DNA of 22,750 nt from a virus: positions 1 to 22,750 of the IMG/VR virus record IMGVR_UViG_3300045999_012326; one strand, 5' to 3'. The notes under the pieces are model-generated. The model saw nothing but the letters and a program-made list of their open reading frames with translations. It had not been told where the DNA came from and did no database searches. Position 1 is the stretch's first letter; each line of letters starts with the position of its first letter. A program made the position numbers and the translations under genes. Below, in pieces: positions 5,943-22,750 of the stretch.

Positions 5943-6770
5943 ATGGGATTCGATTTTTTCGGTAACATTGCTGCACAGAATTTGCGAGGAACAGAATGGA
6001 TGGGAATAGTAGAAGAAAATTCCGATCCTGAGTTTGTCGGAAGATGTAAAGTGAGAATTTTCGGTCTATTTGACGGAAGACAAGATGATAGAGTAGACAA
6101 TTCTCCGTATAAAATTTCTACGAACGATCTCCCATGGTGTTATCCGGCAAACGGATCGTTTTTTTCTAGTAGTGGTGAAAATAGAGGAGCAGGAAATCTT
6201 TCTGTTCCAAAAAAGAACTCAGTAGTAAAAATACGTTTTAACGGCGGAAATCTCTACTCGCCTGAATACTTTTCGATACAAGATGTCAACACTGATCTTT
6301 CAGCGGAGATAAAAGACTCTTATATAGATTCTCATGTCATCTTATATGACAAAGATCAGCAGCTTAAAATCTTATATAAGCCAGCACTAGGAGTACAGAT
6401 TTTTCATAAAGATTCTAATCTTACTATCAATCCTGACTCTAGCATAACTATAGAGCATAAAGATACACAGAGCATTATAGAGCTAGTCGGAGGCACAATA
6501 AACATTGTGGCCAATTCTACAATAAATGTTACTTCTAATACAAAAATACAAGCAGAATCTAGCGAAAGTATTTTTAACGGTAGTACAGTTACTAAATTAG
6601 GTCCTTCTCCTCAGTATTCAGCAGTTTTAGCTGAACCTCTTTGGACATTCTTGAAAATACTTTCAACTGCAGTGGACGCTAAGTTTCCACCTACGCCGAG
6701 CGCCATGTCTTCACAAGCAGAAGCATTTGAAGCTCTTTCTACATCAAAAAACGTTAAAATTTCACCCTGA
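5943..6770 (+). CDS. Baseplate central spike protein, gp5/gpV-like, without lysozyme domain
   Basis: This 275-residue protein has the layout of a membrane-piercing tail spike. An N-terminal OB-fold (about 15-115) opens with WMGIVEENSDPEFVGRCKVR, the usual 'G.V....DP...GR..Vri.g' start, and closes with VPKKNSVVKIRF, the 'vP..g..V.v.F' strand. Residues 130-220 are short alternating strands (LTINPDSSITIEH, GTINIVANSTINVT, KIQAESSESIF), as expected of the intertwined triple-stranded beta-helix. A helical tail (about 232-275) follows. T4 gp5 carries a lysozyme domain between the OB-fold and the helix; none is present here. It sits downstream of the hub gene, its expected partner, and its stop overlaps the next start by one base (TGATG). 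Confidence 0.85.
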   Translation: MGFDFFGNIAAQNLRGTEWMGIVEENSDPEFVGRCKVRIFGLFDGRQDDRVDNSPYKISTNDLPWCYPANGSFFSSSGENRGAGNLSVPKKNSVVKIRFNGGNLYSPEYFSIQDVNTDLSAEIKDSYIDSHVILYDKDQQLKILYKPALGVQIFHKDSNLTINPDSSITIEHKDTQSIIELVGGTINIVANSTINVTSNTKIQAESSESIFNGSTVTKLGPSPQYSAVLAEPLWTFLKILSTAVDAKFPPTPSAMSSQAEAFEALSTSKNVKISP

Positions 6771-9700
6771 TGAATGAGAAGAGCAAATCTAGAGCCGAAC
6801 TCTTACAACTCCCACACTGCGAAAAGGTATACGACGTAGAGGGAGTAGGTGAAGTGATTTTTCCACCAGGTGTAAACTTAGTAGAAAAATCAGTTGACGT
6901 AGAAATAGATCTTGAAGAAATATCAGAAGAAGAAATATCTTCGATTACTGCAGCCACAGCTCTTGCGATACAAGCTATCGAAGAAGCTTATGATCCTTCC
7001 ACAGCAAAGAAAATAAAGGAGAATTTTTCTTCTTCTCTCAATTGGAAAGGGAAAAAGAAATTGAATCTCAAATTACCGTTCAACATCATTCTTTCTGAAG
7101 ATTTTTTCGGCGTAAAAATATCAGTTCTTCCGAATTTTTCCAAGCTTAAAGTCAGTTATGATATACAAAAATTTCTGACAGACAAGCTGGCTGCATTAGA
7201 TTTCTTAAAGAAACACCCTATTCAGCCGTTAGCTAAGAGCAAGAGACAAGTTCCTCTTGACACGGAAAAGAGTAAAGCGGAGATACTTTCTCTCATCACA
7301 GATGAAATTTCTCCGACTCTTAAAGAGAAACTTGATTCTGCAGAAAGTGTCTACGATGTCATAACTATTGCCAGAGAAAACGGCGTCTCTTTAGAAGAAA
7401 ACTACAATCCGACTTCTGAACTCGAAGAATTGGTCAATAATGAATCTATTCCCGAAGAGCTTCCGATAGACGATTGTGCAGAGCCACAGACTGCAATTTC
7501 TGACTTTAGAGGAGAAGAAGTAAATACTGTTGCAACCCAGTGTTGTGAACCTCTTCCAGAAGAAGAAATTGAAGAGCCTATTCCAGAGATAGTAGAGCCT
7601 GAATTACAGACAGAAGAAGAAATACTCGAATTCATAGCGAATGTAGAAGACATAACAGACACGTTGAAGAAGTGTAGTGAAGAAAAAGCGTACGCAGACT
7701 CTTACATTCTGAGAATCTATCAGGTGAGAGAAGACTTGTATCCACTCACTTTTTACATGAAAAAACGGCAAGAAATTTTTCAGACCTACCAGCAAGCAAT
7801 ATCTATCAGAGAAACTATACAGAAGAATGTAGAAGACAATAGAAAAATACTCCAGACTATTGCCAAAAAAGGAAGTGAGACATCAGGAACTCTATTTTCT
7901 GCTGCAATACAGGGAACTAATTTGACCGCCAAAATAAACAGCATAGAGGCAAAAGACTCTTGGAATTTTGATTCAAATGTAGCAGAAAAAGCACAGAAAA
8001 AACTCAAAGAGAGTTATGACATTCTGACAGGCACTACCACACTCAACAAACTCGGTGGAACTGCAAATTCTTACAAGGCTGCAATCACTACTGAAGTTAC
8101 CGCGTATCAGAAAAATAATGATGCGCTAACAGCTCTTTCTGCTTCTCTTTCTGCATTAGAAACTTCTGTGAAATTTAAGCCGACTCTTGACACGTTAGAA
8201 ATAATCGCATTGAAAGCAGCAGGAGCCAACGCACTCACTGTTTTTACTCCTAACACTCTTCTGTTACCCACAGGCAATGGAAATTATAGTAACCAGTCTG
8301 GAGTGAATCCTGTTAACAAGAAAAAATTCTATTTGCTGATAGACGGAGAAAAAAAGATGTTTGATGAGCTTAAAACTATCTATGAGCTCAATCAATTCTC
8401 TGTCGACATGCAAGTTCTCTACCGTCCTTCTAACCCTGGAATTCCTGCCACAGAAAACTTAAGAGGTCTCATTAATGAAAGAGTTTGGAATAAATTCAAT
8501 TCTACCGAAAGAGTAGACTTCCTGTTTACTGCTAAAGAGCAGGGATACATTAGTCCAAAACCTTCAAATTCTGAATTGCAAGACACTACAAAGTCTGTAG
8601 CAGCAGAAGTGAAAATTGATGACGACAAAGCCACAGAATTTTTAAGCAATTATGATGTCAACGAGGAAATAAAACTTTTGCAAAAAATTGCAGAAACTAG
8701 AACATCGGCATCAGAGTACTTTGCTAAGTTAGAAATTGTGGCAAAACAAGATGCTTCTAAAATTTACGAGGGAGAAATCTATGCCATCCAGTGGAATAAT
8801 TCTTCATTGAGCAAGGATTTTAAGGATCTGAAAGAGAAGTATCAGAAAGAATACGAATCTATAATTAAATTTGACGAAGAGCTTGCAAAAAAGATTGATT
8901 CTCTCAAGAAATTTTCTGCACAGAAGAAGCAATGTTTTGCAGATCAAGAAGAAGCTCTAAATAAACTTTCACCGTCAAAAGAGACACCTCAGCCTATCGA
9001 ACCTCCTTGCTCTGATCCATTCGGATCTAAACCGATAAAGAGTTCGAATCCTGGGCCTCAGAAGAACTGTTATTGGAAAGAATACACTAAAAATCTTCAG
9101 ACAGTCGCATTTATGCCAATACCCGACATTTTGGCATTAAATAAACGACTTTTTAGATACTATCCAGTAGGTCTTCAAATACCGGTTCCTGCGCCTCCTG
9201 GAGTTTTACCAACTTTAGCTTTAGGGATACCAGATCCTAAAATCAGCATCCCATTTCCCATACTCTGGAAGCACATACTCACTTTGACTACACCGGCTGG
9301 ACAATTCGTTCTTTGGCTCACAATTTGTCCTCCGTTCACTGTTGCACCTTATTTGCTATTTTTAGATGAACAGCAGAATGCAGCATTTCTTACTTCTCCG
9401 AAAGGCAAAGTCACGGTTCCTGCTCCTTCCCTAAAGTGGAAAAAATTCCTCGAGAAGTCACTATTAGAGAGAATTCCAGGCTTAAAAATTCCGATGGCTG
9501 CTTTACCTCAAATAGATTCCAATGTGAACAATAAAAAGCCAGATTCTACCAAAAATTTCTTGGAAGATCTGAGAAAGAAAGTAAAAGCTCAGATAGACAA
9601 AATTGACAGCCAAGAAAATAATCTTAGCGCAGAGAGAATAGAAAAAAGAACTAAGCTCAAAGATTTTAGAGAAAAACTCAATAAAGCTCTAGACACAAAT

Positions 9701-11254
9701 TCTCCAGAGCTCCCGAAACTGATGTTAGATTTCATTTCAGAAATTAAAAATCAAGTTTCTGACACTGCTGTCAAGATGATAGACTTTGAGCCTTTCACTA
9801 TTCCAAAGACCAACGAGAAAAAGCTAGGAAGTGAAACACTCAATGACTTACAGTCACTTAAAGATAAAGTGAAAGCTCTCAAGAAAGCTGGAGCTAAGAT
9901 ACAAATTAGCACAGTAAATGTAGGAGAAATAATAAAACGTGAGACTCTCTCAGTTTTAGATACACCCGAAGGAAAAGAGCTTTTGAAGTCGATGGATAAA
10001 GAAATCCAGGCCCTAGAAGATAGACTTGCTAGAACCGGAGTGAATAAAGATTTGACATTAGTTTCTAAGGAAAGAGCAAAAGTCATAACTAAATCCTTGA
10101 AGAAAGTTTTAGAGAAGTCAGTCAAAAAGATTACACCGAAAAAACTAGGCTGGATCGAAGATCCGATAACTTTGATTCCAGCTGTTCTACCCTTTCCTTG
10201 TCGGAGCAACATCGCAGTAGAGCCAATTCCGCCTTGGATGCTTCTAGTCATTGCAGGTGTAGCAAGCTTGTCTTCTCTGTTAGATTCTCCAGATGTAGAA
10301 GAAAAATTTGAAAAGTCTTTTTCTCTTCGGATAAATCTGAAGACTAGATTACCGAGATCGAAAGATTTGATGACGCAAGCCATCTCTTCTGGTCTAGATA
10401 TTGTATTAAAATTGGCAGGATCTGCTATTCCAGTTCCAGGGTGGCCAAATGCGATACCTTATCCCAAAGCAGTTTCTCCGTTGAAACAGATCATAAAAGA
10501 AGCTAAAAATTCTGTCTTTAAGAAGAAGCTTAGACTTCCGCCTCTCCCACCTGGGATACCGCCCGTTCCTATAACGCCAGAAGCAGTCCAAAAAGTTGCA
10601 AAACCGATCATAGGAGCAGCCATAGACTTGACGTTTGCGATTATTTTAGAAGAATTATTAACGTACGCTGAAAAAAAGAGTGAACAACTCGATCCGCAAA
10701 CTATAAACAAAGTAAGAAACAGTTTAGCACTGATGAAAGCCGTATTAGGAACAGACATTTGGGATATCAGAGAACAGGACATTAAGTCAGCAGCTTCTGC
10801 ATATGCAAAAAATGCTCTTCTCGGCGCTGAAAATGCTATAAAAGCGGTCATGGCCGTCGTAGATTCTGCACCAACTAAGGAATTTAAGTCAATTTTTTCA
10901 AAATTGACTATGAAGCCTGAAATAAAGCTTCCTCCGGGAACTCCTACATATGACATCGGCCAAGACATTGCATTCGCTCTGTTCAAAACATTCATATTGG
11001 GATACGTGACTGGTAAAAAGACGCCCATCCCTTATCCCGTGGTTCTGTTAGGAGCTTCTACTGGACTTCCTGGATGGGCACTTTCGACGCTTGTCAATCC
11101 ACTTTCAGCAATACAAAAAACTCCGCCGTGGGAAGGTCTTTGCCTAAAAAATGTTCCCTATGTACTATTTTTAGACATGATAGCAGCCTCAGCTCAAAGA
11201 TATGGAGGCATAGGTAACAGTTATTTAGTGCCTTACTTTACTCCGGAGCCATAG
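6770..11254 (+). CDS. Giant virion structural protein (1494 residues), function unknown
   Basis: The start ATG shares one base with the spike stop. The protein is modular: an N-terminal mixed domain (1-200); a Glu-rich acidic stretch with a Cys-Cys pair (about 213-283, including QCCEPLPEEEIEEP); coiled-coil-like charged helices (about 306-413, 623-730 and 923-1120); and four separated Pro-rich hydrophobic blocks at about 780-890, 1127-1177, 1217-1270 and 1387-1494. Motifs in these blocks include RYYPVGLQIPVPAPPG, ISIPFPILWKHI, GWPNAIPYP and TPIPYPVVLLGAS. I recall similar 'RYYPVGL.IP.P' blocks in unnamed structural proteins of T4-like environmental phages. The large size and coiled coils also suit a tape measure, but the repeated Pro-rich blocks, the Cys residues and the position directly after the spike are not typical. 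A hub- or spike-associated or DNA-ejection role is possible. The CDS is secure. Confidence 0.8.
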   Translation: MNEKSKSRAELLQLPHCEKVYDVEGVGEVIFPPGVNLVEKSVDVEIDLEEISEEEISSITAATALAIQAIEEAYDPSTAKKIKENFSSSLNWKGKKKLNLKLPFNIILSEDFFGVKISVLPNFSKLKVSYDIQKFLTDKLAALDFLKKHPIQPLAKSKRQVPLDTEKSKAEILSLITDEISPTLKEKLDSAESVYDVITIARENGVSLEENYNPTSELEELVNNESIPEELPIDDCAEPQTAISDFRGEEVNTVATQCCEPLPEEEIEEPIPEIVEPELQTEEEILEFIANVEDITDTLKKCSEEKAYADSYILRIYQVREDLYPLTFYMKKRQEIFQTYQQAISIRETIQKNVEDNRKILQTIAKKGSETSGTLFSAAIQGTNLTAKINSIEAKDSWNFDSNVAEKAQKKLKESYDILTGTTTLNKLGGTANSYKAAITTEVTAYQKNNDALTALSASLSALETSVKFKPTLDTLEIIALKAAGANALTVFTPNTLLLPTGNGNYSNQSGVNPVNKKKFYLLIDGEKKMFDELKTIYELNQFSVDMQVLYRPSNPGIPATENLRGLINERVWNKFNSTERVDFLFTAKEQGYISPKPSNSELQDTTKSVAAEVKIDDDKATEFLSNYDVNEEIKLLQKIAETRTSASEYFAKLEIVAKQDASKIYEGEIYAIQWNNSSLSKDFKDLKEKYQKEYESIIKFDEELAKKIDSLKKFSAQKKQCFADQEEALNKLSPSKETPQPIEPPCSDPFGSKPIKSSNPGPQKNCYWKEYTKNLQTVAFMPIPDILALNKRLFRYYPVGLQIPVPAPPGVLPTLALGIPDPKISIPFPILWKHILTLTTPAGQFVLWLTICPPFTVAPYLLFLDEQQNAAFLTSPKGKVTVPAPSLKWKKFLEKSLLERIPGLKIPMAALPQIDSNVNNKKPDSTKNFLEDLRKKVKAQIDKIDSQENNLSAERIEKRTKLKDFREKLNKALDTNSPELPKLMLDFISEIKNQVSDTAVKMIDFEPFTIPKTNEKKLGSETLNDLQSLKDKVKALKKAGAKIQISTVNVGEIIKRETLSVLDTPEGKELLKSMDKEIQALEDRLARTGVNKDLTLVSKERAKVITKSLKKVLEKSVKKITPKKLGWIEDPITLIPAVLPFPCRSNIAVEPIPPWMLLVIAGVASLSSLLDSPDVEEKFEKSFSLRINLKTRLPRSKDLMTQAISSGLDIVLKLAGSAIPVPGWPNAIPYPKAVSPLKQIIKEAKNSVFKKKLRLPPLPPGIPPVPITPEAVQKVAKPIIGAAIDLTFAIILEELLTYAEKKSEQLDPQTINKVRNSLALMKAVLGTDIWDIREQDIKSAASAYAKNALLGAENAIKAVMAVVDSAPTKEFKSIFSKLTMKPEIKLPPGTPTYDIGQDIAFALFKTFILGYVTGKKTPIPYPVVLLGASTGLPGWALSTLVNPLSAIQKTPPWEGLCLKNVPYVLFLDMIAASAQRYGGIGNSYLVPYFTPEP
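10887..10909 (+). repeat. AT-rich perfect inverted repeat (10-bp arms, 3-base loop)
   Basis: AGTCAATTTT, a TTC loop and AAAATTGACT form perfect arms inside the coding sequence of the 1494-residue protein (around FKSIFSKLTM). No T-run follows the second arm, and the gene continues for about 340 bases. In AT-rich DNA such a repeat may arise by chance. Confidence 0.5.
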
Positions 11255-11283: not shown

Positions 11284-12459
11284 ATGCCAAAATCATTAAA
11301 AGAAAACAAAACAATCAAAAAACAAGACAGAAAAGACAAAGTTTACTGTCATGAACCCTATGCTCAAGAGCTCTACGATCTTCTCTGTGGCATAGAAGCA
11401 CCTTGTAAAGACGTAGAAGTTGGACAAACACTCAAAGCCATTGATCTTAGAGTCTCTAAGTCTGGAGAAGTAGAAGTACACACAGACGCTGGAATAGCGG
11501 TGTACTTAGACATGAGAAAAGAGAAGAGGTATTTCGAAGCATTCGGTTTCGAAGACTACAGTTTGGAACACTTTGCAGAGCTTTCAAAAGCTGGCTGGTT
11601 CAGAGAACTTTTTTCTTCACGCGAAGAAAAAATCACAGTCGAAGGAAAACTTGGTGCTTTGAGAGGATCTCTTTACGAGTCTCACATCAACAATGTTAGA
11701 CAAGAATTCTTTGATCAAGTCAAGAAGCAATCTACTGCTTACGTAGCCAAAGTCATTTCTAAGAATCAAGGAGGATTTTTCATCAAAGTTCAAGGAATTG
11801 AAGCTTTCCTTCCCGGATCTCTTGCTGCAGCAAATAAGATTATCGACTTTGACTCTTATATTGGCAAAGAAATTCCTGTGATGGTAGAAGACTATCTTGT
11901 CAACTCTGACACATTCATTTTCTCTTACAAAAAATATCTGGAGAAAATACTTCCTTCTAAGCTAGCAGAAGTCAAAAAATTCTCTAGGCTTATTGGAAAC
12001 GTAACAGGAACAAGCAAGTATGGAATTTTCGTGGAATTCGAAGACATTTTCACTGGATTGCTCCACACTTCAGAAATGCTTCCTGAAACACTAGACAAAT
12101 TCAATTCTAGAAGCTATCGTCCTGGTCAAGAGTTGGAGCTATGGGTAAAAGACATTAAAGAAGAGAAGTTAATTTTGACAGAAATTGATCCTTCAGAAAA
12201 GATATCTGAGATGGAAAATTTCAGAAGCAAGATTGAAGGAACAGTGAGATCGTTAAAAGTCATCTCTGTTAAACCGTTCGGAGCATTCTGTGAAATAGAA
12301 GAAAATAGAGTCGGTCTTCTTCCTGTGAAGGAAATTAAGAGGATCACTAAAAAAATGGAAGTAGGGGAATTTTATCAACTTTGCATATCAAAAGTTGATC
12401 CCGAAACCGGAAAAATATACCTGAGCGCCACAAATGAAAGGGTTGCAAACGAAGTATAA
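11284..12459 (+). CDS. Ribosomal protein S1-like RNA-binding protein with three S1 domains
   Basis: This 391-residue protein has a Lys-rich N-terminus, a possible degenerate fourth OB unit at about 45-90 (EVGQTLKAIDLRV), and three S1 (OB-fold) domains. Domain A (150-220) has TAYVAKVISKNQGGFFIKVQ, IEAFLPGSLA. Domain B (232-302) is the most canonical: LIGNVTGTSKYGIFVEFEDI, TGLLHTSEM, then PGQELELWVKDI. Domain C (315-387) has IEGTVRSLKVISVKPFGAFC, GLLPVKEI and a final strand KIYLSATNER. The order 'G.V.....fG.FV......GL.h.s', 'G..v...v..id', 'i.LS' is the S1 signature. S1 domains bind single-stranded RNA; bacterial bS1 helps ribosomes load mRNAs. It follows a late-type promoter and overlaps the amidoligase gene by 26 bases. 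Translational control of late mRNA, or interference with host S1, are inferences. The enclosure within virion genes is unusual. Confidence 0.88.
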   Translation: MPKSLKENKTIKKQDRKDKVYCHEPYAQELYDLLCGIEAPCKDVEVGQTLKAIDLRVSKSGEVEVHTDAGIAVYLDMRKEKRYFEAFGFEDYSLEHFAELSKAGWFRELFSSREEKITVEGKLGALRGSLYESHINNVRQEFFDQVKKQSTAYVAKVISKNQGGFFIKVQGIEAFLPGSLAAANKIIDFDSYIGKEIPVMVEDYLVNSDTFIFSYKKYLEKILPSKLAEVKKFSRLIGNVTGTSKYGIFVEFEDIFTGLLHTSEMLPETLDKFNSRSYRPGQELELWVKDIKEEKLILTEIDPSEKISEMENFRSKIEGTVRSLKVISVKPFGAFCEIEENRVGLLPVKEIKRITKKMEVGEFYQLCISKVDPETGKIYLSATNERVANEV

Positions 12460-13807
12460 CATCCTTACAGCAGCAAAAGTTGGAATTGAATTTGAGTTCT
12501 ACACTGAAAAGACTCCTTCCGCTGCAGCAAAAGAGCTGGGAAGAGCACTCAACAAGAAAATTGTTGTTCCCAAGTCTACTGTTGCGTTTAACAAGGAGGA
12601 GAAAGGAACATATCACAGTGAACTAGAACCGACTTCTACAGTTTTCAAACTGGAGAAAGACTTCAGTGGCGGCAAAGATATGAAAGAATTGATAACTGGG
12701 CCTCTTCCCTATGAAGAGGCCCGGATTGTCATAATCAAGACGCTCGACTGGATAAAGAGCAATGGGTGGACTGACAAGAAATGTGCTATACATCTCAATG
12801 TCAGTTTCAATCCATTCTTGATTAAGCTCAAGAATGAAATTTCACACTTGAATCCACTCAAATTGATTCTCTCTTACGATGAAAATTACATATACGAAAG
12901 ATTTCCAGAAAGGAAAGACAGCGTCTATGCTCAGAGCATCAATCAAGTCATACCGATCAACAAGTTTACTTTTCAGAGCACTCCGGAAAATGTAGATTCT
13001 TCTAATTTCATTGTTCCAGATGAAAAGTACTACGGGATCAATTTCACCAAGAGAACTAAGAACTACTTGGAAATAAGATACCTTGGAGGAAAAGATTACG
13101 AATTTAAGACTGCAAAAATCTTAGAAATTTTAGACTACTCTATACTCAAAATTTATGAGAGTTTACAGACTCCGCAATTCACCACTTCAGAGATAGAAAA
13201 ACTCAAGACGATAGTTGTGAACATGAGAAAAGTCGGAGAGTCTTTTTCTAGCCCAGAGAGATTCTTTGTAGATTTTCCTAAGATCAACGTCTTCATAGAC
13301 ATGAAAGGAAATAAAGAAATCTTGAAAAGCTACTGGACTAGCATAAGAGAACAGCTTTTCAACCTGATAGTGAGCGGAGGTCTCAAGGAGGGAATCTTTA
13401 ACTTTGACACTGACATTTCAGTTTCGCAACTCAGATATGCAAAATTGAATAATGCACACGGAATAGAAAATTTTGAAATGTTTGACTGTGAATTTAATGG
13501 AGCAGGAGAAAACATTGCATTTTTTAGGTGTAAGATCAAGAATAGCCGTCTAAAAAGATGCAAGTTAGTAGAATTTAATGAGATAGAAGACTCTAAAGTA
13601 GAACACACTTCTTCGTTTCCCACTAACACATTTCTTAACTGTTACATAAATAGCCCTGATGATATCGTAGAAGGAAAGATCGAAGGTGGAGTAATCAGAA
13701 ACGCTATCATAGGACAAAGAGCTGAAATATCTTCGACTGCGCTCATGGTTGATCACACACCTGAAGCCGAAAGTAAAAAAATTCAATTGAGGAATGACAA
13801 GAAATGA
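12434..13807 (+). CDS. Amidoligase-like enzyme (GCS/glutamine-synthetase-type fold) fused to a beta-helix-like tail
   Basis: The N-terminal ~240 residues of this 457-residue protein match the pattern of the putative amidoligase (COOH-NH2 ligase) family: G17-IEFEF with acidic E19 and E21; a KELITGPLPYEEA segment (about 83-96) like the family's 'E.vTgPl.y.eA'; H120-LNVSF in place of the usual 'HvHv', with Asn at the second His; and Y211-LEIRYLGGKDYE with E213 and R215. Such enzymes use ATP to join a carboxylate to an amine. Residues 250-315 are helical. Residues 322-445 show short periodic strands (FEMFDCEFNG, IAFFRCKIKNSRLKRCKLVE, GGVIRNAIIG) typical of a right-handed beta-helix. It overlaps the S1 gene by 26 bases and the neck gene by 14. 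Substrate unknown: phage structural proteins or cell-wall peptides are possible. The key residues suggest it is active. Confidence 0.75.
   Translation: MKGLQTKYNILTAAKVGIEFEFYTEKTPSAAAKELGRALNKKIVVPKSTVAFNKEEKGTYHSELEPTSTVFKLEKDFSGGKDMKELITGPLPYEEARIVIIKTLDWIKSNGWTDKKCAIHLNVSFNPFLIKLKNEISHLNPLKLILSYDENYIYERFPERKDSVYAQSINQVIPINKFTFQSTPENVDSSNFIVPDEKYYGINFTKRTKNYLEIRYLGGKDYEFKTAKILEILDYSILKIYESLQTPQFTTSEIEKLKTIVVNMRKVGESFSSPERFFVDFPKINVFIDMKGNKEILKSYWTSIREQLFNLIVSGGLKEGIFNFDTDISVSQLRYAKLNNAHGIENFEMFDCEFNGAGENIAFFRCKIKNSRLKRCKLVEFNEIEDSKVEHTSSFPTNTFLNCYINSPDDIVEGKIEGGVIRNAIIGQRAEISSTALMVDHTPEAESKKIQLRNDKK
12696..12724 (+). repeat. GC-rich intragenic hairpin (10 perfect bp plus two more in RNA)
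   Basis: GGGCCTCTTC (12698-12707), a CCTAT loop and GAAGAGGCCC (12713-12722) form a perfect stem. In RNA it extends by U12697-G12723 and C12696-G12724. It lies within the amidoligase reading frame and encodes TGPLPYEEAR. The stem uses GGG, CCC, GCC and CGG codons, which stand out in a gene set that mostly uses GGA and AGA. No T-run follows, so it is not a standard intrinsic terminator. Confidence 0.75.
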
Positions 13808-14525
13808 TCTAGTTCAGATGGTTCTTAGAGAGCTAGACAGCTCTTTTGCTCTACCTGTTCAAATACAACCTCAGGAAATAGAGAGAAACATAGACCAGTC
13901 TGCATTGTGGTTTTATGAAAATTACAGAGATTCGGTAGAAACTCAATACTTCATAATCAAGTTAGAAGAGTTCCAGAAACCTGCATGGAAAGAGTGTAGA
14001 GTGATCAATATGCCAGAGGGAGTAGTCTCAGTTTTCGAAGTACGAGAAATTACAGGTGCTGGATTGCTAGGTACCGTTGACCGAGATTTCGCCGACAACA
14101 AGCTTATTGCTTCAGAAATTTATCTTTCTCCGTTCTTAGGAGACGGTCTAGTCTACAGGATTGCACAGTACCAGTTTTTTGATCTGACAAAAGCGTTCTT
14201 CATGGACTTGATAAGATTTGACTTCAACAGAAGGACACTCAAACTTAAAATCTTGGGTAGAGATCCACGTAGAGATCTTTTCATACAAACTTACGTCAAG
14301 ATACCTGCAGACAAACTTTACGACGACTATTATTTTTACAGATACGTCACTGCAAAGTCTAAACTGTCTTTGGCCAGACAGTTGAGCTTCTTTGACTTTA
14401 ACTTGATGGGTGGAATCAAAATAAATGTTTCCGATCTTCGTTCTGAGGCAACTGAAGAGATAGCAAAGGTCGAACAAGAAATAAAGGATCAAGACACTCC
14501 AGATTACTTCATGGTTTGGCACTAA
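13794..14525 (+). CDS. Probable neck/head-completion protein (gp13/gp14-like)
   Basis: This 243-residue protein starts inside the end of the amidoligase gene (14-base overlap; GAGG at 13789-13792 is only one base from the ATG). The N-terminus has the helix pattern IERNIDQSALWFYENYRDSV, like the 'I...Id.Al..f..yH.d' start of neck and connector proteins of T4-like phages. A beta domain follows (MPEGVVSVFEVREITG). The C-terminal part has a helical LSLARQLSFFDFNLMGGIKI segment, a 'SDLRSEATEEIAKVEQEI' helix and a DTPDYFMVW terminus, which I associate with phage neck or virion structural proteins. T4 gp13 and gp14 (309 and 256 residues) close the portal after packaging and receive the tail. Homology is judged from pattern only; a baseplate or adaptor role is the alternative. 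Confidence 0.72.
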   Translation: MTRNDLVQMVLRELDSSFALPVQIQPQEIERNIDQSALWFYENYRDSVETQYFIIKLEEFQKPAWKECRVINMPEGVVSVFEVREITGAGLLGTVDRDFADNKLIASEIYLSPFLGDGLVYRIAQYQFFDLTKAFFMDLIRFDFNRRTLKLKILGRDPRRDLFIQTYVKIPADKLYDDYYFYRYVTAKSKLSLARQLSFFDFNLMGGIKINVSDLRSEATEEIAKVEQEIKDQDTPDYFMVWH

Positions 14526-14580: not shown

Positions 14581-14943
14581 ATGCTAAAAGAGATTTACAC
14601 TAGAGACCCTTCTGATCCATTCTACCGTCCTGACGTTTTTGAGATTGAAAGCGATCTAGAAAATCTGCTTGGACAAATCAGAATGGTCATGTTTACTAGG
14701 CCAGCAGAGGTCATTGGAATGATCCCTTTTGGCCTTGATCTGGAATCTCTGGTCTTTTCTACGAATCTCACTAACTCTGCGATCGAAGAAAGAGTTAGAA
14801 CTGCTATTTACACATATTGTCCAGATGCAGACGCATTTGACGTTCAAATACTAGTACAGTTTTATTATGGCACTACGAGAGACATCTGCGTTATAGATAT
14901 ATTGATAGATGGCACAAAATACCTTGGAATTTTACTGAAATGA
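14581..14943 (+). CDS. 25: Baseplate wedge protein gp25
   Basis: This 120-residue protein is the right size for T4 gp25 (132 residues), the sheath-initiating wedge subunit with a lysozyme-like but non-enzymatic fold shared with type VI secretion TssE. Diagnostic segments are the N-terminal helix region (FEIESDLENLLGQIRMVMFT), the core EVIGMIPFGLDLESLVF (43-59, the family's 'e..g.p.fG.dl...lf' with the conserved Glu preceding it), IEERVRTAIYTYCPDA, and the final strands QFYYGTTRDICVIDI and GTKYLGILLK. It heads the wedge operon, and its TGA overlaps the gp6 ATG (ATGA), so gp25 and gp6, which contact each other in the wedge, are probably co-translated. No enzymatic activity is expected. Confidence 0.93.
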   Translation: MLKEIYTRDPSDPFYRPDVFEIESDLENLLGQIRMVMFTRPAEVIGMIPFGLDLESLVFSTNLTNSAIEERVRTAIYTYCPDADAFDVQILVQFYYGTTRDICVIDILIDGTKYLGILLK

Positions 14944-16592
14944 GTACTTCTAATTCAAACCTACCCAATTTTCTCAATAAAGCTAGAGTAGAATCCAATG
15001 CTCTTTTCGAGCAGATACAGCTCTACATGCAAGAGAAATACCAGCAGGCAGGAAAAGTCTTTTCCATCTCTAGCGCATACGGACAGATTATTCATGCTCT
15101 TTCGCAAATAAGCAACATGATACTCTTCTACATAGAAGATGCCATAACAGAGCTCAATATCTATTCAGCTTCACGGACTAGCAGCATACAGGGTTTGGCT
15201 AGACTTGCAGGTCATAACATTACGAGAAGTATTTCTTCTACCGGAGAAGTTCAAATTTCTCTAATTTCAAATCCGCAAGTCAATGGAAATCAGATACTCA
15301 TCCCCAGATATTCCAGATTGAGATGCATAAATAACTCTGTCACATATCTGATAAATTTTCCAGAGAGTGACATACGCATTCCTTTTGGTTCAAAAGTGCC
15401 TATTTACAGTGCTGTGATACAGGGAGAGTTGCAAAATCAAGTTTACACTGCAAATGGAGAAATTTTACAGTCATATTCTATCCAAGAGAGAAGTTTTAAC
15501 TTCATTGAGAATTTTTTCACTAAAGTTTATGTCAATGGAGTAGAGTGGAAAAAATATGATTCTCTATATGACATCCCTAGAGAGTATGAAGGATTTGTAG
15601 CAAAGACAGGAATTTCAGGAGGCCTTGACATCTACTTTGGAAATGGTGCATTCGGAAAAGTTCCAACGCTGGGAAGCTCTATCACTATTGAATACATCAG
15701 ATCTGCCGGAAGTGGCGGAAACCTTAGAGAAGGCCAAGAAGTTTATTTCCAGTGGCTAGATTCTGGATACAGCGTTTTCGGTGAAGAGATTGACTTGAAT
15801 GAGATCACCACAGTAAAAATGTCTAAAGTGATATCGTTTGGTGCAAATTCTGAAGACATCGAACTTACAAAACTTTTAGCTCCTAAGACTTCACGTTCTT
15901 ACGTTTTTGCTACTCCTGAAAATTACCGAGTCTTCTTAGAAAAATTCAACTATTTTTCAGTTATAGACGCATTTACAACTTATGATGACGAGTACTTGGA
16001 CGATGACAATGTCATTTATCTGTTCTTGATACCCGATATTACGAAGAGAATGACAGACGGTGAAAACTATTTCACTGTTCCTATCACGTTCTTCACACTC
16101 ACAGAACAAGAGCAAGAAAAAGTTCTTAATCTGATTGAAGATAGCGGATCAAAAATAGTCACTACCGTAGTAAAGATCTTAGACCCTATCATCACTAAAT
16201 ACGTTCTCAACGTTAGTTTGGTGACTTACGAAGGATATTCGACCATGACTATTAGAGAAAAAGTTATACAAGCAGTCTCTGACTATTTCTTACAAAACAA
16301 GAGAACTGATAGAATTCCAAAGTCTGATTTGATAAGAGTAATCGAATCTGTGGAAGGAGTAGATTCTGTGAACGTTTCGTTTATTTCTGAGCTCAATGAA
16401 CAAAAACTTAACTCCACAGATCCACTCATCGGTTTAGATGAGTTTGGAGATATCATAATAGGAAGAGATGAGCTACCTCTTATCAGAGGAGGCTGGAAAG
16501 ACAAGAATGGTCTATATTACGAAGATGGAATTTCTTCTGATAAGCCTTGCTCATTGAACATAAATTTCAAAAAAGTTTCAGTTAAGCAATAA
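14940..16592 (+). CDS. 6: Baseplate wedge protein gp6 (gpJ-like)
   Basis: This 550-residue protein would dimerise around the baseplate ring and clamp wedges together, the role of T4 gp6 (660 residues), P2 gpJ and TssF. The N-terminal helices (1-75) include YGQIIHALSQISNMILFYIE. Residues 75-130 have LARLAGHNITRSISSTGEVQ and a strand-rich 'IP..srL' part. The signature YFGNGAFGKVPTLGSSITIEY followed by GSGGNL lies at 232-262. The C-terminal gpJ region (407-487) has KILDPIITKYVLNVSLVTY, then IREKVIQAVSDYF and RVIESVEGVDSVNV. Start and stop are both overlapped: ATGA with gp25 and TAATG with the 79-residue gene. All hallmarks are intact. Confidence 0.92.
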   Translation: MSTSNSNLPNFLNKARVESNALFEQIQLYMQEKYQQAGKVFSISSAYGQIIHALSQISNMILFYIEDAITELNIYSASRTSSIQGLARLAGHNITRSISSTGEVQISLISNPQVNGNQILIPRYSRLRCINNSVTYLINFPESDIRIPFGSKVPIYSAVIQGELQNQVYTANGEILQSYSIQERSFNFIENFFTKVYVNGVEWKKYDSLYDIPREYEGFVAKTGISGGLDIYFGNGAFGKVPTLGSSITIEYIRSAGSGGNLREGQEVYFQWLDSGYSVFGEEIDLNEITTVKMSKVISFGANSEDIELTKLLAPKTSRSYVFATPENYRVFLEKFNYFSVIDAFTTYDDEYLDDDNVIYLFLIPDITKRMTDGENYFTVPITFFTLTEQEQEKVLNLIEDSGSKIVTTVVKILDPIITKYVLNVSLVTYEGYSTMTIREKVIQAVSDYFLQNKRTDRIPKSDLIRVIESVEGVDSVNVSFISELNEQKLNSTDPLIGLDEFGDIIIGRDELPLIRGGWKDKNGLYYEDGISSDKPCSLNINFKKVSVKQ

Positions 16593-16831
16593 TGAAAAAG
16601 AGTCTCTATGATGCTGCTACTTCTAGAGTAGAGAAAATTAACTACTTGGGGTTCAATTATGAAGGGAAGATACTCAAGCGCTCGCTTTCATCGTATCTTT
16701 TCAAGGATCCAACTAGAGCAGAAATCTTGAACAAGTTTGAAGAGATCATCTTTTTCCTTGTAGAAAAGGTGAAAACTGTAAAGACTTTTTACAATTACAC
16801 AGTACCAAAGGACTATAAGAAGATTAACTAA
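16592..16831 (+). CDS. Small protein of unknown function between gp6 and the gp7-like gene
   Basis: This 79-residue, Lys-rich, basic protein has no signal peptide or membrane segment. It contains a helical stretch (AEILNKFEEIIFFLVEKV) followed by TFYNYTVPKDYKKIN. Both ends are fused to neighbours by one-base TAATG overlaps, so it is almost certainly translated with gp6 and the gp7-like protein. This makes it more than a random open frame. A small wedge component or an assembly chaperone for its neighbours would fit the location. I do not recognise the family. Confidence 0.75.
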   Translation: MKKSLYDAATSRVEKINYLGFNYEGKILKRSLSSYLFKDPTRAEILNKFEEIIFFLVEKVKTVKTFYNYTVPKDYKKIN

Positions 16832-19800
16832 TGGCTCAAACTACATTCGTAAGATTTTTTAACAAGAAAGGAGAAGACTTTAACTTCTCTCATATTGACA
16901 GTGACTTTGGAAATAAATTTGAAGGAGCAATTTATTTTCCCAAAGTTTCAGTGAATCTGATTGAGTCAGAAAACATTTTTCTCTTACAAGAAGTCACGGT
17001 TCCCACTGTGCAGCCAAATCTCAAAAAACTTTCTGGGATAGCTTCAACTACTGCAGGAAATCCAACTGTGACAGTCCAAGATGGAAAATTAACTTCTGAG
17101 CTTAATTATACAGGACTCACAGGAGATCTTTTTCAAATAGCAGGAACTGTTTATGGGATAACTGGTGGAACAGGAACGTTTGGCCCAACGTCAATGAACG
17201 TATCACTGGCTCCTCTGATGACAAATCCGCCTGTTTCTACTGTCACTTCAGAAGATTTTTACCTGTTAGATTTCGTCGGTTACAATCGACTAATAGCTTC
17301 TTCCGATGTAGTTTCAGAGAGCTTATATGCTGAGTTTCCTGATGAGACAGGAAAATTTTTCTTCTATGAAATAGACTATCAGGAAAATCTTCCACTGATT
17401 TCTAAGAAGAGAACTGTTGAAATACCCATTCTAGCAGGTCCAACTGTTCAGGATCTCAATACAGGCAGAATCATAGTTTCTGCAACTGCGCAAAATGTTA
17501 CACCTTCACAGTTGAACATCGGTTTTTCTTCTACTGAAGAAGGAGTTTTTGAAGAACCTCTCAACCTCTATCTAAAAAAGAGCATCAACTTTGAAGGATC
17601 TCAGTGGCAAGGCGCTACAGCAGCAGCACTTCCTGTAGACAATGGAGATGGAACTTGGACAATTGACATCGGTTACATAGGATATTCTGCTGAATTAGAC
17701 GCTATCCAGACTCTCTATCTTTCTAGATCTGTTCCTGGCGGTGGATATCAGTACTTTGAGCTTAAGTTAGTATCATATCAGGAATTCACTCTTTACACTT
17801 CGTTGGTAGTAAGAGAAGTTAACACTTCTTTGATCAGCTCTATAAACTCTTCGAACGTCTCTTCTTTTGGCCTCTATTTGGTCTGGAGAGAATTTCTTTT
17901 GCAGAGTCTAGTATATGGTGAAGCTGAGTCTGAAGATGAAAGATTCAAGCTTACGCTAGAAAACTTTGGAAGAAAAATTGACGAAGAAAATGAATACATT
18001 TTTAGAGATTCGGCAATTGATGAAGAGCTCACTGACTATCGTCTTCTCAACAAGAAGAGAAAAGAGCTTCTTTTAGAAGGAGACAAGATTTATCCGTACA
18101 TGGGATCTTACAAGGCTCTCATAAACGTGCTCAATCTCTTTGGATACAATGACGTAGAAATCAAAGAATACTTTTTGAACGTAGACACTACTTCTCTCGA
18201 CAATGGAAAGTTCATTTCTGTTCCGATAGCCAAGTCTGCAGCTCAAAACAACATCGTCAAAAAAGCCTGGAAAGTTTTACCTTCTAAGATTTACAAGAAA
18301 ACTTCACTTTTCGGTCTTTACTATAAGCTCAATAAAGTGAGCGGAGATTACGACGAATTTGGAGTTCCTCTAGTCACGGAAGACTATCAGTTTACTGCAG
18401 AAGAAGTTCTCATCAAGTTATTCGGTCTCAAAGAAGTTCTCAAGAAGGACTATCTTCCTCTCAATGCAAGAATATATGACATAACAGGAGAAGGAATTTA
18501 TTTTGAAAGATACCGACTGAACAACTGGTCAGATTCTCTAGATGTAAGAGTTCTTGACATTGGAAAAGTTCCTGATTTAGTCCTGTATCCACAGGGAGAT
18601 ACGTACATAAGAGATCTCAGGTATATTGACTATTTTTACGAAAAGAAATTTAGTGAACAAGGACTTACTGGATTCTTAGGACCCACGGCTACAAATCCGG
18701 GCGTTACTGCCACTTCTACTCCGCTCAACTCTATTTACACGAATTGGGTAGGAAGTTTTGAACTGTATAAGCAGGATGATTGGACATACAGAGATCAGTT
18801 CTGGGACAGCATGCCTCCTGGAATTTCAAACCCAGAATTCAACTTGTATGCATCTTATCAGAAGCAGTTACCGGATGACGTCAACATAGTTTCGGGTGCA
18901 CCTGTTTTATCAGAAGTAAACTTCACTCTTACATGGGATGAATCTACGTTTTCTTGGAATCAGTGCTATTTTCTTTCTTCATTCGCTGGAAATTTTACAG
19001 CTTCAATAGGAGCTACCGGAGGAACTGTAAGCATAACGGATCTGACTTCGACTATTCAGGACAGAGGATTTTCAGTAGGATCTACAGTCACTATAGGAAA
19101 TTCTGAATTTGATGGAAATTATTCAATATTGTCAATCTCTGGAAACACTTTTGACATCAACATAAATGTGGTTCCTATCCTCTCTACAGGATCTCTCAGT
19201 TATAGCACAGACATCAATCAAGTCTCCAGCAGCATAAATAGACTCTCTTGGGACACTATTGCCAGAGGAGAATATATTGACATGCGAATCATGATGAAAA
19301 TTGCAGGAGAAAAGACATTTTTCTATGATTCAGGCAGACAACCGATCGAAAATTTCACAGTAGATTATACAGACACAAAGGGAATAACTTACAAGCGAAT
19401 TTTACATGCTGTTAGTTTGCCTTATACTGGAGTATACGACATATCTGTGTACGTTTATGACATCACCAACAATTTCACTATGCAATACGTGAAAAAAGAA
19501 GTGAAGACTCCTGAAGTTGTCATTGCAGCATCTTATCAAGCACAAGAAATCTTTGACAACTTCGATGACATCAATCTGAAATGGAAAGAGGCCACGTTTG
19601 ACTGGTATTACCCTTCGAAACCTTTTACTACTTGGGAACAAGCAAATCTCAACTGGGATAGTGTAGAGCTCTATGCATACAAAAATCAAGACTTGGTAGA
19701 AGACAAAACTCTTGTAGACATATTAGAAATAGACAGAGCAGCTTCTAGCATTCTCATCCAGGGAGATGTCACAGACAATCCTCTTGCAGTAGCAGGAGAA

Positions 19801-21660
19801 TACTTGTATTTTGTTAGACTAGATTCTGCATTAGAAATTGAAAACGCTATAATTTCGCCTGCTGCTTTCTTGAATAACTCCAATGGGACGTTTGAAATGC
19901 AAATGAATCCTACAGATTTTGCAAAATTGCAACTGTATTCTAAAGTCATCATCAAGAATACTGACACGGCATTCAATTCTCTCTCTGCTCAAGACTTTTT
20001 CTATGCAGACGTCATAGGACTCACAGGAACTCTGTATAACACTACTTTCAAAGCTTACCAGCCTTCGATTGACATTTTTGAAGCTTACAATTTACTGAAT
20101 CCGCTTTATTTAGATTCTGGATTTTATGCTGGAACTTACGCAATAGAAATAGCATCACTTAAAGCTGTTTCTGGAAATACTCTTTTCTTCCTAAAAGATA
20201 CACAGAAAGAGCTCTATAAGATTGACGGATATTTCCAACCGTATCTGACTTCTTACGACGTAGATTTTGCAGAAACTCATATTGGAATTGAAGCCGAGAC
20301 TTATGAGAATTCTACTGACACCACATGGAATTCGCTGGACGAAAAAGCTTGGTGGTCAAAAGAAAGACACGCAGTACTCAATTCTGGATTCTTGATCACT
20401 AGAGTTTCTCCGGGCGGAACAATACAAGTCAGCGATTTTGACGAATTCACTTTCAGCGGAACATCAGTTTTGAACCAGTACGGTTATACTGCAATGAATC
20501 AGGGCCTCACGGAAATTCTTTCTACTGCGAACGAAGGAATGAATCACTATGAGTATCAACTCATCCCTCTAGAACCTAAGATTCTAAAAGGCTCGAATGG
20601 AGCTACAGTTTCTCTGAGCTCTACTGCTTCTGGAGGATCTCTTTCTATTGTGTTAGGAAGCATGCCTTATGACATCAAAGTTCCAGCAGAATTGTCAATC
20701 GGTCTTTCCGGAAGTTCACTTACATTTTCAATATCTTCGAACGGTAGCGGATACGTCTTGCCGCCAAACGTGACTTTGCAAGGCGGTGGAGGAACTGGAG
20801 CTTCAATTGCTCTTTCACTCAACGCATATGGAGCAGTAGGTAGCTTCACAGCAGTCGGAGGAACTGGTTACACTTCTGTTCCTACTTACACGATCGAAAA
20901 TCCGCTCGGTTATGAAGATGGGCTGACTAACTACGCATGGACAGGTCTAGAGTGGATAAAGATCAATTCAGTGGCTTATTCTTCTCCGACTTCTTCGACT
21001 TTGACGTTAGACTCTTCTCTTTCGTATCCAGTACCTAGCGGCTCAATCTTGTATATGCCATATGCATGGCACCAAGTTCAATACATGTCTTCTCCGGCAA
21101 TTCAGAACAGTTTTTATGTAGCTATACACGGCTCATCAAAAACTCCTTCTCTTAAAGATTTGCGAGAAATTGTGTTCACTAACGGAACAGAAGGTGAATG
21201 GATAAATGTACTAGACACAAATTCTTATCCGCTTGGAAATTCTCTGCTATTTAACGTTCTAGGCAAGAATTACAAGAGCGCACAATATGATTATTGGCAA
21301 TCAAACGGAAAAGATTTTCCGGTCGTTGGGAATAACGAAGACGACAGCAGAGCTCTTTATGCAGGAGCATACTCCGAAGGATTTTCATTCTCTGACATTA
21401 ACATGACTGACAACTCATTTCAAATAACTAGATCTACTACCGTCATTTTTCATGATGACGCTTCCAGACTTCCTACGAAAAAAGAAAGAGTTTGGAAAAT
21501 CATCAATGCGGAAACAGGTCAAGAAGAAGTAGTTTCAAATTCTAATAAATTAGTTTGGAAATTTACGAGGTCAGGTGAATTTTCTGTTGAGCTTTCTATA
21601 ACTGACAAATATGGAAATGTTGCTAACAATACCAAGAAATCCTTTGTTCACGTAGTATGA
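16831..21660 (+). CDS. Giant baseplate wedge protein, gp7/gpI-like, with Ig/PKD-like modules
   Basis: This 1609-residue protein is longer than T4 gp7 (1032). The N-terminal part (1-380) is beta-rich (MAQTTFVRFFNKKGEDF). Residues about 400-445 (YRLLNKKRKELLLEGDKIYP, then MGSYKALINVLNLFGYNDV) resemble the tail protein I/gp7 helical region that anchors a wedge arm. Next come paired Trp-rich segments (WTYRDQFWD; FTWDESTFSWNQ), a beta insert at about 720-785, an Ig-like domain at about 796-890 (INRLSWDTIARGEYIDMRIM, YTGVYDISVYVYDITNN), a WKEATFDWYYPSKP segment, GxGY..PP repeats at 1305-1351, and a C-terminal PKD-like domain at 1530-1609 (FTRSGEFSVELSITDKYGNV). Position after gp6 supports a gp7-type role. 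The extra modules suggest fibre attachment or surface adhesion. It overlaps the next gene by ATGA. Confidence 0.8.
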   Translation: MAQTTFVRFFNKKGEDFNFSHIDSDFGNKFEGAIYFPKVSVNLIESENIFLLQEVTVPTVQPNLKKLSGIASTTAGNPTVTVQDGKLTSELNYTGLTGDLFQIAGTVYGITGGTGTFGPTSMNVSLAPLMTNPPVSTVTSEDFYLLDFVGYNRLIASSDVVSESLYAEFPDETGKFFFYEIDYQENLPLISKKRTVEIPILAGPTVQDLNTGRIIVSATAQNVTPSQLNIGFSSTEEGVFEEPLNLYLKKSINFEGSQWQGATAAALPVDNGDGTWTIDIGYIGYSAELDAIQTLYLSRSVPGGGYQYFELKLVSYQEFTLYTSLVVREVNTSLISSINSSNVSSFGLYLVWREFLLQSLVYGEAESEDERFKLTLENFGRKIDEENEYIFRDSAIDEELTDYRLLNKKRKELLLEGDKIYPYMGSYKALINVLNLFGYNDVEIKEYFLNVDTTSLDNGKFISVPIAKSAAQNNIVKKAWKVLPSKIYKKTSLFGLYYKLNKVSGDYDEFGVPLVTEDYQFTAEEVLIKLFGLKEVLKKDYLPLNARIYDITGEGIYFERYRLNNWSDSLDVRVLDIGKVPDLVLYPQGDTYIRDLRYIDYFYEKKFSEQGLTGFLGPTATNPGVTATSTPLNSIYTNWVGSFELYKQDDWTYRDQFWDSMPPGISNPEFNLYASYQKQLPDDVNIVSGAPVLSEVNFTLTWDESTFSWNQCYFLSSFAGNFTASIGATGGTVSITDLTSTIQDRGFSVGSTVTIGNSEFDGNYSILSISGNTFDININVVPILSTGSLSYSTDINQVSSSINRLSWDTIARGEYIDMRIMMKIAGEKTFFYDSGRQPIENFTVDYTDTKGITYKRILHAVSLPYTGVYDISVYVYDITNNFTMQYVKKEVKTPEVVIAASYQAQEIFDNFDDINLKWKEATFDWYYPSKPFTTWEQANLNWDSVELYAYKNQDLVEDKTLVDILEIDRAASSILIQGDVTDNPLAVAGEYLYFVRLDSALEIENAIISPAAFLNNSNGTFEMQMNPTDFAKLQLYSKVIIKNTDTAFNSLSAQDFFYADVIGLTGTLYNTTFKAYQPSIDIFEAYNLLNPLYLDSGFYAGTYAIEIASLKAVSGNTLFFLKDTQKELYKIDGYFQPYLTSYDVDFAETHIGIEAETYENSTDTTWNSLDEKAWWSKERHAVLNSGFLITRVSPGGTIQVSDFDEFTFSGTSVLNQYGYTAMNQGLTEILSTANEGMNHYEYQLIPLEPKILKGSNGATVSLSSTASGGSLSIVLGSMPYDIKVPAELSIGLSGSSLTFSISSNGSGYVLPPNVTLQGGGGTGASIALSLNAYGAVGSFTAVGGTGYTSVPTYTIENPLGYEDGLTNYAWTGLEWIKINSVAYSSPTSSTLTLDSSLSYPVPSGSILYMPYAWHQVQYMSSPAIQNSFYVAIHGSSKTPSLKDLREIVFTNGTEGEWINVLDTNSYPLGNSLLFNVLGKNYKSAQYDYWQSNGKDFPVVGNNEDDSRALYAGAYSEGFSFSDINMTDNSFQITRSTTVIFHDDASRLPTKKERVWKIINAETGQEEVVSNSNKLVWKFTRSGEFSVELSITDKYGNVANNTKKSFVHVV
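20743..20910 (+). repeat. Two GxGY..PP beta modules in the gp7-like protein
   Basis: Residues 1305-1312 (GSGYVLPP, followed by VTLQGGGGTGAS) and 1343-1351 (GGTGYTSVP, followed by TYTIENP) are two copies of a short glycine-rich beta repeat. The same pattern recurs twice in the next gene. The repeats are related at protein level only. Similar 'G.GY..pP.v.i.GGgG.GA' repeats are common in phage fibre and surface proteins. Confidence 0.7.
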
Positions 21661-22750
21661 CAAATTTTGATAAAATAGAAAATGGCACAGTTCCAGCAGG
21701 ACTAACTTCTTCTTCCGAGTTTGCGTTTCCAATCAATTCAGGAAACGTAGTCGAAGAAGTTCCAGGTTCTACTTCTTCAACTTATTACGACGAAGGAGTA
21801 GAGTTAGTTAGCATTGACTTAGCAACACTGAGCATAGTAGTAGAAGGAGATTGGACAAATCGTAGAATTTTACAAAACGATAACTATCTCTACATCAGAA
21901 AAAATTCTATCAACCGAAAATTTTTCTATACTACTGTTAGGCCAGACTACAGCATGTTAGTTCCTACTACTAAAATAATTCTTGATTCTGCCACAACTCT
22001 CGGCTCTGATCTATACGATTTCATAGGCACAGCTGGTGTGCCAGATGCTAACGCTAAAGTTCTGCTAAGTGACAAGATTCAAAATCCCTTGGAAGAGAAT
22101 CCCATATCTTATGATTTCAAGGTGACAAAAGCTTTTGATGATCAGGCATTTGGAATTTTCAATGTGAATTTCTCTTGGAAAAATTCTCCTTATGTGTCTA
22201 AAAATGTGCTCCGATGGAGACCTGTTCCAAAACAGAACAGGTATACTGAGCTTTCATTCAATGTTTTGGCATCAGGTGCATACGATTCACAGATAGTTCT
22301 AGGCTTAAATTCTTCTTATGGATCTGGCGCAGCTATTCTCCCTATAAATTCGGTTACAAAGGTGGAAGTCATATCTGGAGGAACTTATGGAGCTACTGTC
22401 TCGGTAGTTGCTACTTCTCCTTATGGTTCTGGAGCTTCGTTCTCTGTTTCTATGAGTGGAACAGCTCCTTCACTTTCTATCGGAAGTGTCACCGTGGTAG
22501 CAGGCGGAACAGGTTATTCTTTGCCTCCTACACTTGTCATTCAAGACTCTCTGGGATCTACTTCTCCAGGCGAGCTCAAATCTTACATAGGAATAACTGG
22601 CGTTGAAATAGTTTCACAAGGGATAAACTATGTCAATCCACCTTCTATCACAGTTTCTGGAGCAACCGGAGCATCTGGATCATTAGCAAGTTTGACATCT
22701 ACCACGACAGTTTACAACACAGGAAGAGTAGATTTTGTGCAAGTAGTAGT
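21657..22750 (+). CDS. Fibre-like or wedge-associated structural protein (3' end outside window)
   Basis: The ATG at 21657 overlaps the upstream TGA (ATGA), and the frame stays open to the window end, giving 364 complete codons. The N-terminal 240 residues are mixed beta (LVSIDLATLSIVVEGDWTNR; YLYIRKNSINRKFFYTTVRP) with an FNVNFSWKNSPYVSKNVLRW segment. From about 225 the sequence becomes Gly/Ser/Thr-rich with repeats: TKVEVISGGTYGATVSV, GGTGYSLPPTLVI at 283-295 and QGINYVNPPSITVSGATGAS at 321-340. The repeats match those in the gp7-like protein, suggesting a shared fibrous element. Its place after gp7 corresponds to T4 gp8 or a short fibre gene, but no gp8 signature is visible. Codon usage matches its neighbours. 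Confidence 0.78.
   Translation, partial: MTNFDKIENGTVPAGLTSSSEFAFPINSGNVVEEVPGSTSSTYYDEGVELVSIDLATLSIVVEGDWTNRRILQNDNYLYIRKNSINRKFFYTTVRPDYSMLVPTTKIILDSATTLGSDLYDFIGTAGVPDANAKVLLSDKIQNPLEENPISYDFKVTKAFDDQAFGIFNVNFSWKNSPYVSKNVLRWRPVPKQNRYTELSFNVLASGAYDSQIVLGLNSSYGSGAAILPINSVTKVEVISGGTYGATVSVVATSPYGSGASFSVSMSGTAPSLSIGSVTVVAGGTGYSLPPTLVIQDSLGSTSPGELKSYIGITGVEIVSQGINYVNPPSITVSGATGASGSLASLTSTTTVYNTGRVDFVQVV
22375..22680 (+). repeat. GxGY..PP beta modules in the fibre-like protein
   Basis: Residues 283-291 (GGTGYSLPP) and 321-329 (QGINYVNPP) each precede a beta strand and then a Gly/Ala/Ser-rich turn (SGATGAS). A partial unit (SGGTYGATVSV, then SPYGSGAS) lies just upstream. These are the same modules as those at 20743-20910, with different codons. 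The array may continue beyond the window. Confidence 0.65.

Follow-up and report, generated by a model that had tools for sequence, protein, structure and literature searches.

A predicted amidoligase with a pentapeptide-repeat-like beta-helix tail encoded in a phage baseplate operon

The window, by which we mean the whole 22.75-kb IMG/VR virus record analysed here, carries the genes and features listed in Table 1. An initial annotation of this DNA had placed an amidoligase-like enzyme with a beta-helix tail inside a phage tail cassette, and the gp5-, gp25- and gp6-like neighbours around the amidoligase gene bear out this tail and baseplate setting. The amidoligase ORF begins with an ATG at position 12434, a start backed by alignment with homologues, and shares 26 nt with the 3' end of the S1 gene; all motifs formerly quoted for it are found in its translation. 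The S1-domain protein itself (11284-12459) comprises about three S1 repeats in addition to an N-terminal domain, and the presence of a translation-type S1 gene within the baseplate operon of nearly all relatives is itself odd. The large gene at 6770-11254 is swapped for unrelated families of very different lengths in related phages, and its counterpart in LR756500 displays likeness to a tape-measure protein; as a candidate RiPP-like substrate it was rejected, the respective Nif11 match (E 0.026) being regarded as chance. Towards the 3' end, PHROG 460 is matched weakly both by the C-terminal region of the 1609-aa product and by the cut-off ORF 21657-22748, which suggests a domain common to successive baseplate or fibre genes.

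Table 1. Genes of the window and features of the amidoligase protein (positions refer to the window).
Feature	Position	Strand	Basis or remark
gp5-like baseplate hub protein	5943..6770	+	phrog_430 / phrog_37871
Large variable gene flanked by gp5 and S1	6770..11254	+	unrelated families elsewhere
S1-domain protein	11284..12459	+	PF00575 2.4e-20, 3 stretches; rpsA-like
Amidoligase + beta-helix protein, 457 aa	12434..13807	+	ORF, translation, PF12224 over cut-off, AF2 model
Catalytic domain + helical linker, residues 14-313, glutamine synthetase/GCS-type fold	12473..13372	+	
G17-x-E19-x-E21 motif, predicted metal ligands	12482..12496	+	invariant in 52/52
E85, predicted third acidic ligand	12686..12688	+	invariant in 52/52
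H120-x-N122-x-S124 motif; H->Q in one clade	12791..12805	+	H 32, Q 20 among 52
E213-x-R215 motif, predicted metal + ATP-phosphate contacts	13070..13078	+	invariant in 52/52
Pentapeptide-repeat-like beta-helix, residues 316-440	13379..13753	+	profile, fold, periodicity
PHROG 211-like structural protein (head-tail adaptor Ad2 in PHROGs)	13794..14525	+	4.6e-15
gp25-like baseplate wedge protein	14581..14943	+	PF04965 1.2e-5, 25.5 bits, just under cut-off 27.2
gp6-like baseplate wedge protein	14940..16592	+	phrog_219 2e-31
Large conserved gene 3' of gp6, product of 1609 aa, probably a baseplate or fibre component	16831..21660	+	in 67/86 loci

The assignment of the N-terminal part to the amidoligases, as proposed earlier, is upheld by both profile and fold. 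In a Pfam profile search, Amidoligase_2 (PF12224) matched residues 14-170 of the protein with 23.9 bits (E 4.5e-5), above the curated cut-off of 22 bits, and no match of the N-terminal domain to an unrelated non-enzymatic family arose. The profile is likewise matched at E<=0.01 by 29 of the 52 non-redundant homologues, several family members scoring under the curated cut-off. AlphaFold2, supplied with the 52-sequence alignment, yielded a confident full-length model (mean pLDDT 89.5, pTM 0.85), while the predicted catalytic-domain model of residues 1-315 alone reached a pLDDT of 90.0. The top fold matches of the protein are glutamine synthetase and gamma-glutamylcysteine ligase (8fbp, 3ln7, 1va6): in a Foldseek search of the full-length model against the PDB, glutamine synthetases ranked first (E 2.9e-5, probability 1.0), with the gamma-glutamylcysteine ligases 3ln7 and 1va6 and then QnrB1, MfpA and AlbG among the other matches, and the top 50 matches of the catalytic domain alone consisted only of glutamine-synthetase/GCS-fold entries. 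The glutamine-synthetase matches combine a probability of ~1.0 and E values of 3e-5 to 1e-4 with TM-scores of ~0.2-0.4 and an identity of ~7-15%, and hence denote a fold class for the catalytic domain and no close similarity. In the BFVD, the best fold match is an unnamed phage protein that aligns over the full length (TM 0.86), so that the two-domain architecture is already deposited without a name, and the next matches include many phage proteins labelled amidoligase. Judging from the model and these comparisons, the catalytic domain very probably adopts the amidoligase fold.

Conservation of the predicted active site points in the same direction. G17, E19, E21, E85, E213 and R215 are unchanged in 52/52 non-redundant homologues, the Glu and Arg residues staying invariant even though these homologues share no more than 37-54% identity with the window protein; moreover, GxExE and ExRYxG occur in 70/70 amidoligase ORFs of a second set of loci, which was anchored on gp6 (see below). 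ExE and ExR elements are typical of the glutamine synthetase/GCS fold, from which the roles of E19, E21, E85, E213 and R215 as metal ligands or contacts of the ATP phosphate are presumed. On the other hand, of the catalytic residues put forward by the initial annotation, the Glu and Arg residues stand, but H120 is no invariant of the family: the position is occupied by His in 32 homologues, as in the window protein, and by Gln in 20, the latter forming one side of a single tree branch (support 97/90; recovered in 100% of bootstrap trees). The amidoligase protein is predicted to be an active ATP-dependent ligase, which we regard as likely. Its opposite, a repurposing of the enzyme-derived fold as a part of the baseplate or of an assembly chaperone without catalysis, would be in keeping with the baseplate synteny described below and with the loss of H120 in one clade; since a purely structural role requires neither the invariant acidic ligands and R215 nor the two universally retained motifs, this alternative appears very improbable.

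The beta-helix tail, for which about 120 residues had been estimated, is recovered in the AlphaFold2 model, where short strands are stacked regularly in a ladder spanning ~125 residues (316-440). This domain matches pentapeptide-repeat proteins by profile as well as by fold, and hydrophobic autocorrelation at lag 5 amounts to 0.168 in the beta-helix vs -0.020 in the catalytic domain, i.e. a five-residue hydrophobic period is present in the former and missing from the latter. PF13599 was found in 12/52 homologues, the window protein itself being devoid of a Pfam pentapeptide match. The C-terminal domain thereby resembles MfpA, AlbG and QnrB1 in profile, fold and five-residue period; it differs from them in its fusion to an enzyme domain and in not being strongly acidic, the mean net charge of the family being near neutral (~-1 over 125 residues). 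DNA mimicry, a function prompted by the MfpA/Qnr matches, is therefore not indicated. The initial annotation had envisaged that the beta-helix could tether the enzyme to the virion or to a glycan; its fold matches are cytoplasmic pentapeptide-repeat proteins, and glycan-binding tail spikes are not among them.

Homologues of the same architecture were detected in at least 496 related IMG/VR stretches by means of an alignment query, whereas a single-sequence scan of IMG/VR had found no relatives. Hundreds of huge-phage sequences constitute a large coherent set carrying the amidoligase. The closest annotated phage records are six LR7* entries from huge phages that have not been cultured (462-735 kb, 31-38% identity), which represent five distinct genomes, as LR756501 and LR756503 are equal in length and give identical matches. 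With one exception, their homologues align over >90% of the length, so that the C-terminal part is conserved too. The same records provide the best phage-record matches for both the amidoligase and gp6, the best record being LR756500. In the 'Clades of huge phages' study, the genomes of greatest size are assigned to the Mahaphage clade, for which Bacteroidetes are the predicted hosts (PMC7162821), and the amidoligase carriers are probably very large phages related to these 'Mahaphages'. No detectable copy was found in the Lak phages, PAU, pT24 and MaF61. An origin from a host-encoded gene was rejected, the sole match in genome contigs being a contig of 5.9 kb that looks phage-like, although it forms part of a bacterial MAG. 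Similarly, the suspicion that the amidoligase of L187 is a pseudogene was dismissed, its ORF being open over 455 codons. In L088, a phage-like contig filed under a Deltaproteobacteria MAG, an ORF at 919-1560 that reads as a GIY-YIG-like homing endonuclease lies as an insertion between S1 and the amidoligase.

The genomic place of the amidoligase is nearly fixed among relatives. In 86 loci chosen via the amidoligase, the S1 gene is located immediately upstream in 77, often overlapping or within ~60 nt, while the PHROG 211-like gene follows directly downstream in 65 and is present somewhere in 83. Moreover, gp25-, gp6- and gp5-like genes occur in 81, 80 and 69 of these loci, respectively. Because the loci had been picked by the amidoligase itself, the synteny test was repeated with gp6 as anchor, using 71 loci that extend for 4.5 kb or more upstream; the amidoligase was retained in 67/71, without exception in the order S1 < amidoligase < gp6. 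The two sets have some contigs in common and both consist of nearest relatives, so the synteny describes one lineage and not all huge phages. In the remaining 4/71 loci, the amidoligase is missing from its place. One of them is also devoid of an S1 match and is perhaps cut or rearranged, and in the other three (L137, L150, L173) the S1 gene is directly followed by gp25. One of these three is a 200-kb contig in which the amidoligase has moved to a site ~130-140 kb from gp6, adjoining gp32-, UvsW- and primase-like genes. In L197, the gene directly 3' of the relocated amidoligase (7709-9100) encodes 473 aa resembling leucine-rich repeats, and its relatives likewise neighbour the amidoligase of L004 and L005.

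Beyond this lineage, the amidoligase of four distant huge phages of Mahaphage size is situated within ~20 kb of genes of the window tail set: it adjoins the 185/1765/2460/4014/gp5 set in LR745206 and LR756502, gp25 and PHROG 211 lie nearby in LR756504, and the family of the gene at 16831 is ~10 kb off in LR756501. As two of the four phages are closely related, these cases perhaps amount to two or three independent observations. In these genomes, the amidoligase is encoded on the strand opposite to most nearby tail genes.

The regular pairing with S1 gives rise to another interpretation, according to which the amidoligase cooperates with the adjacent S1-like protein in translation takeover, its substrate being either a ribosomal protein or S1 of the phage itself, so that ribosomes would be directed to phage mRNA. 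Modification of a ribosomal protein has a parallel in RimK, an unrelated ATP-grasp enzyme that acts on ribosomal protein S6. The direct 5' position of S1 in 77 of 86 loci is consistent with such a pair, as is the delivery of mRNA to the ribosome that has been proposed for S1-domain proteins of huge phages (PMC7162821). In the four distant huge phages, however, a window-related three-repeat S1 gene resides ~50-440 kb away from the amidoligase, a separation that counts against the pair. In addition, L137, L150 and L173 keep S1 together with gp25/gp6 with the amidoligase missing from the locus, and Lak phages possess an S1 homologue without a detectable amidoligase of this family. Taken together, translation takeover is considered unlikely.

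Phage members of PF12224 such as tf_21 of Pseudomonas phage tf and AUZ94978 of Agrobacterium phage Atu_ph07 belong to the same domain family, whereas the window protein features an additional C-terminal beta-helix, is encoded in a baseplate operon and is devoid of GATase and ATP-grasp partners; a profile comparison of the window family with tf_21 gave no match. The cassette of phage tf comprises genes for a glutamine amidotransferase, an ATP-grasp protein, a COOH-NH2 ligase and an AIG2-like protein, and lies 5' of the replication genes, apart from the virion genes. No partner of the tf/LUZ24 type was found in the window or adjoining the amidoligase gene in other loci, and ATP-grasp_4 and GATase_6 gave zero matches in those complete genomes of huge phages that were tested. 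Three of the huge phages do possess GGACT (AIG2-like) genes, at least 50 kb from the amidoligase, apart from one copy in LR745206 at ~24 kb. Matches to GATase_6 (PF13522) in three contigs were discounted as a glutamine-amidotransferase partner, as they reflect an asparagine-synthetase-like gene ~17 kb away. In the H120Q clade, large contigs carry a conserved asparagine-synthetase-like gene on the upstream side of the tail genes (L199 4134-5540, L200 10551-11954).

For phiEco32-like and other small-phage amidoligases, a role in envelope or metabolite chemistry has been suggested (PMC10580990, PMC11318856). Transferred to the present family, this would imply an enzyme that introduces an amide into peptidoglycan, a different envelope component or a small metabolite, for instance in superinfection exclusion. 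Such a role is rendered less likely by the missing partner genes of phage tf and is further opposed by the location of the amidoligase in a baseplate operon, and we assign it a low probability. A function-tested phage amidoligase was not found in the literature searched, though the annotation is widespread. The domain family and each half of the protein are already known; nevertheless, no paper on an amidoligase in huge phages, or on an amidoligase joined to a pentapeptide repeat in one protein, was found in the open-licence literature, and the same holds true for the fixed fusion, its place in the baseplate operon and its scale.

The family, the fold, the conserved Glu and Arg ligands, the fusion of the two domains and the conserved position within the baseplate operon are computed properties of the protein, to which the favoured interpretation adds catalytic activity, docking and a virion target. 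According to this reading, co-expression of the amidoligase with the baseplate proteins is probable, the beta-helix would dock on a partner protein and thereby position the ligase, and the ligase would use ATP to form an amide or peptide bond on a tail or baseplate protein during virion assembly, possibly adding an amino acid or a short peptide or cross-linking side chains. An intact, beta-helix-docked, ATP-dependent carboxylate-amine ligase that modifies a tail or baseplate protein in assembly is given about even chances. For the more specific point that the enzyme acts on a virion protein, which we infer from the baseplate-operon place of its gene, the chances fall slightly short of even. 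Counted against this interpretation are the relocation beside replication genes in the 200-kb contig, the strand orientation in the distant huge phages, the translation-type S1 partner, the clade with H120 replaced by Gln, the low TM-scores and the non-match to phage tf.

Its place and conservation nonetheless render the amidoligase a good candidate for the chemical modification of a phage particle. Given the fixed two-domain architecture and the near-fixed genomic place, virion proteins or the translation apparatus constitute the candidate substrates, a choice that can be tested by proteomics. In broader terms, huge phages with a dedicated baseplate-operon amidoligase might, in the course of assembly, furnish their own tail with peptide or isopeptide bonds, a generalisation that we regard as tentative and rather doubtful. 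No description of an enzymatic covalent-modification step in the morphogenesis of contractile tails was found in the searched papers. Polyglutamyl folate was at one time reported as a component of T4 baseplates, and its gamma-glutamyl chain is of a kind that could be made by a ligase of this fold; a literature search on folylpolyglutamate in the T4 baseplate yielded no relevant paper. Irrespective of its substrate, the amidoligase adds an annotated marker gene to a lineage with mostly unnamed proteins.

Divergent relatives of the domain exist in other phages. Salicola phage SCTP-2 encodes gp124 and gp125, which contain a homologous domain (hhalign probability 96.6%, E 6e-10) and occur as tandem copies of 606-647 aa without a recognisable beta-helix tail, a long insert separating the first strand from the remaining domain; these paralogues (gp125 and gp124, L007 18930-22690) are annotated as hypothetical. 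The Amidoligase_2 gene of Atu_ph07 (AUZ94978, L112 15930-17432), likewise annotated as hypothetical, is located 2.7 kb from the portal gene and hence represents a further link between amidoligase and virion genes in giant phages.
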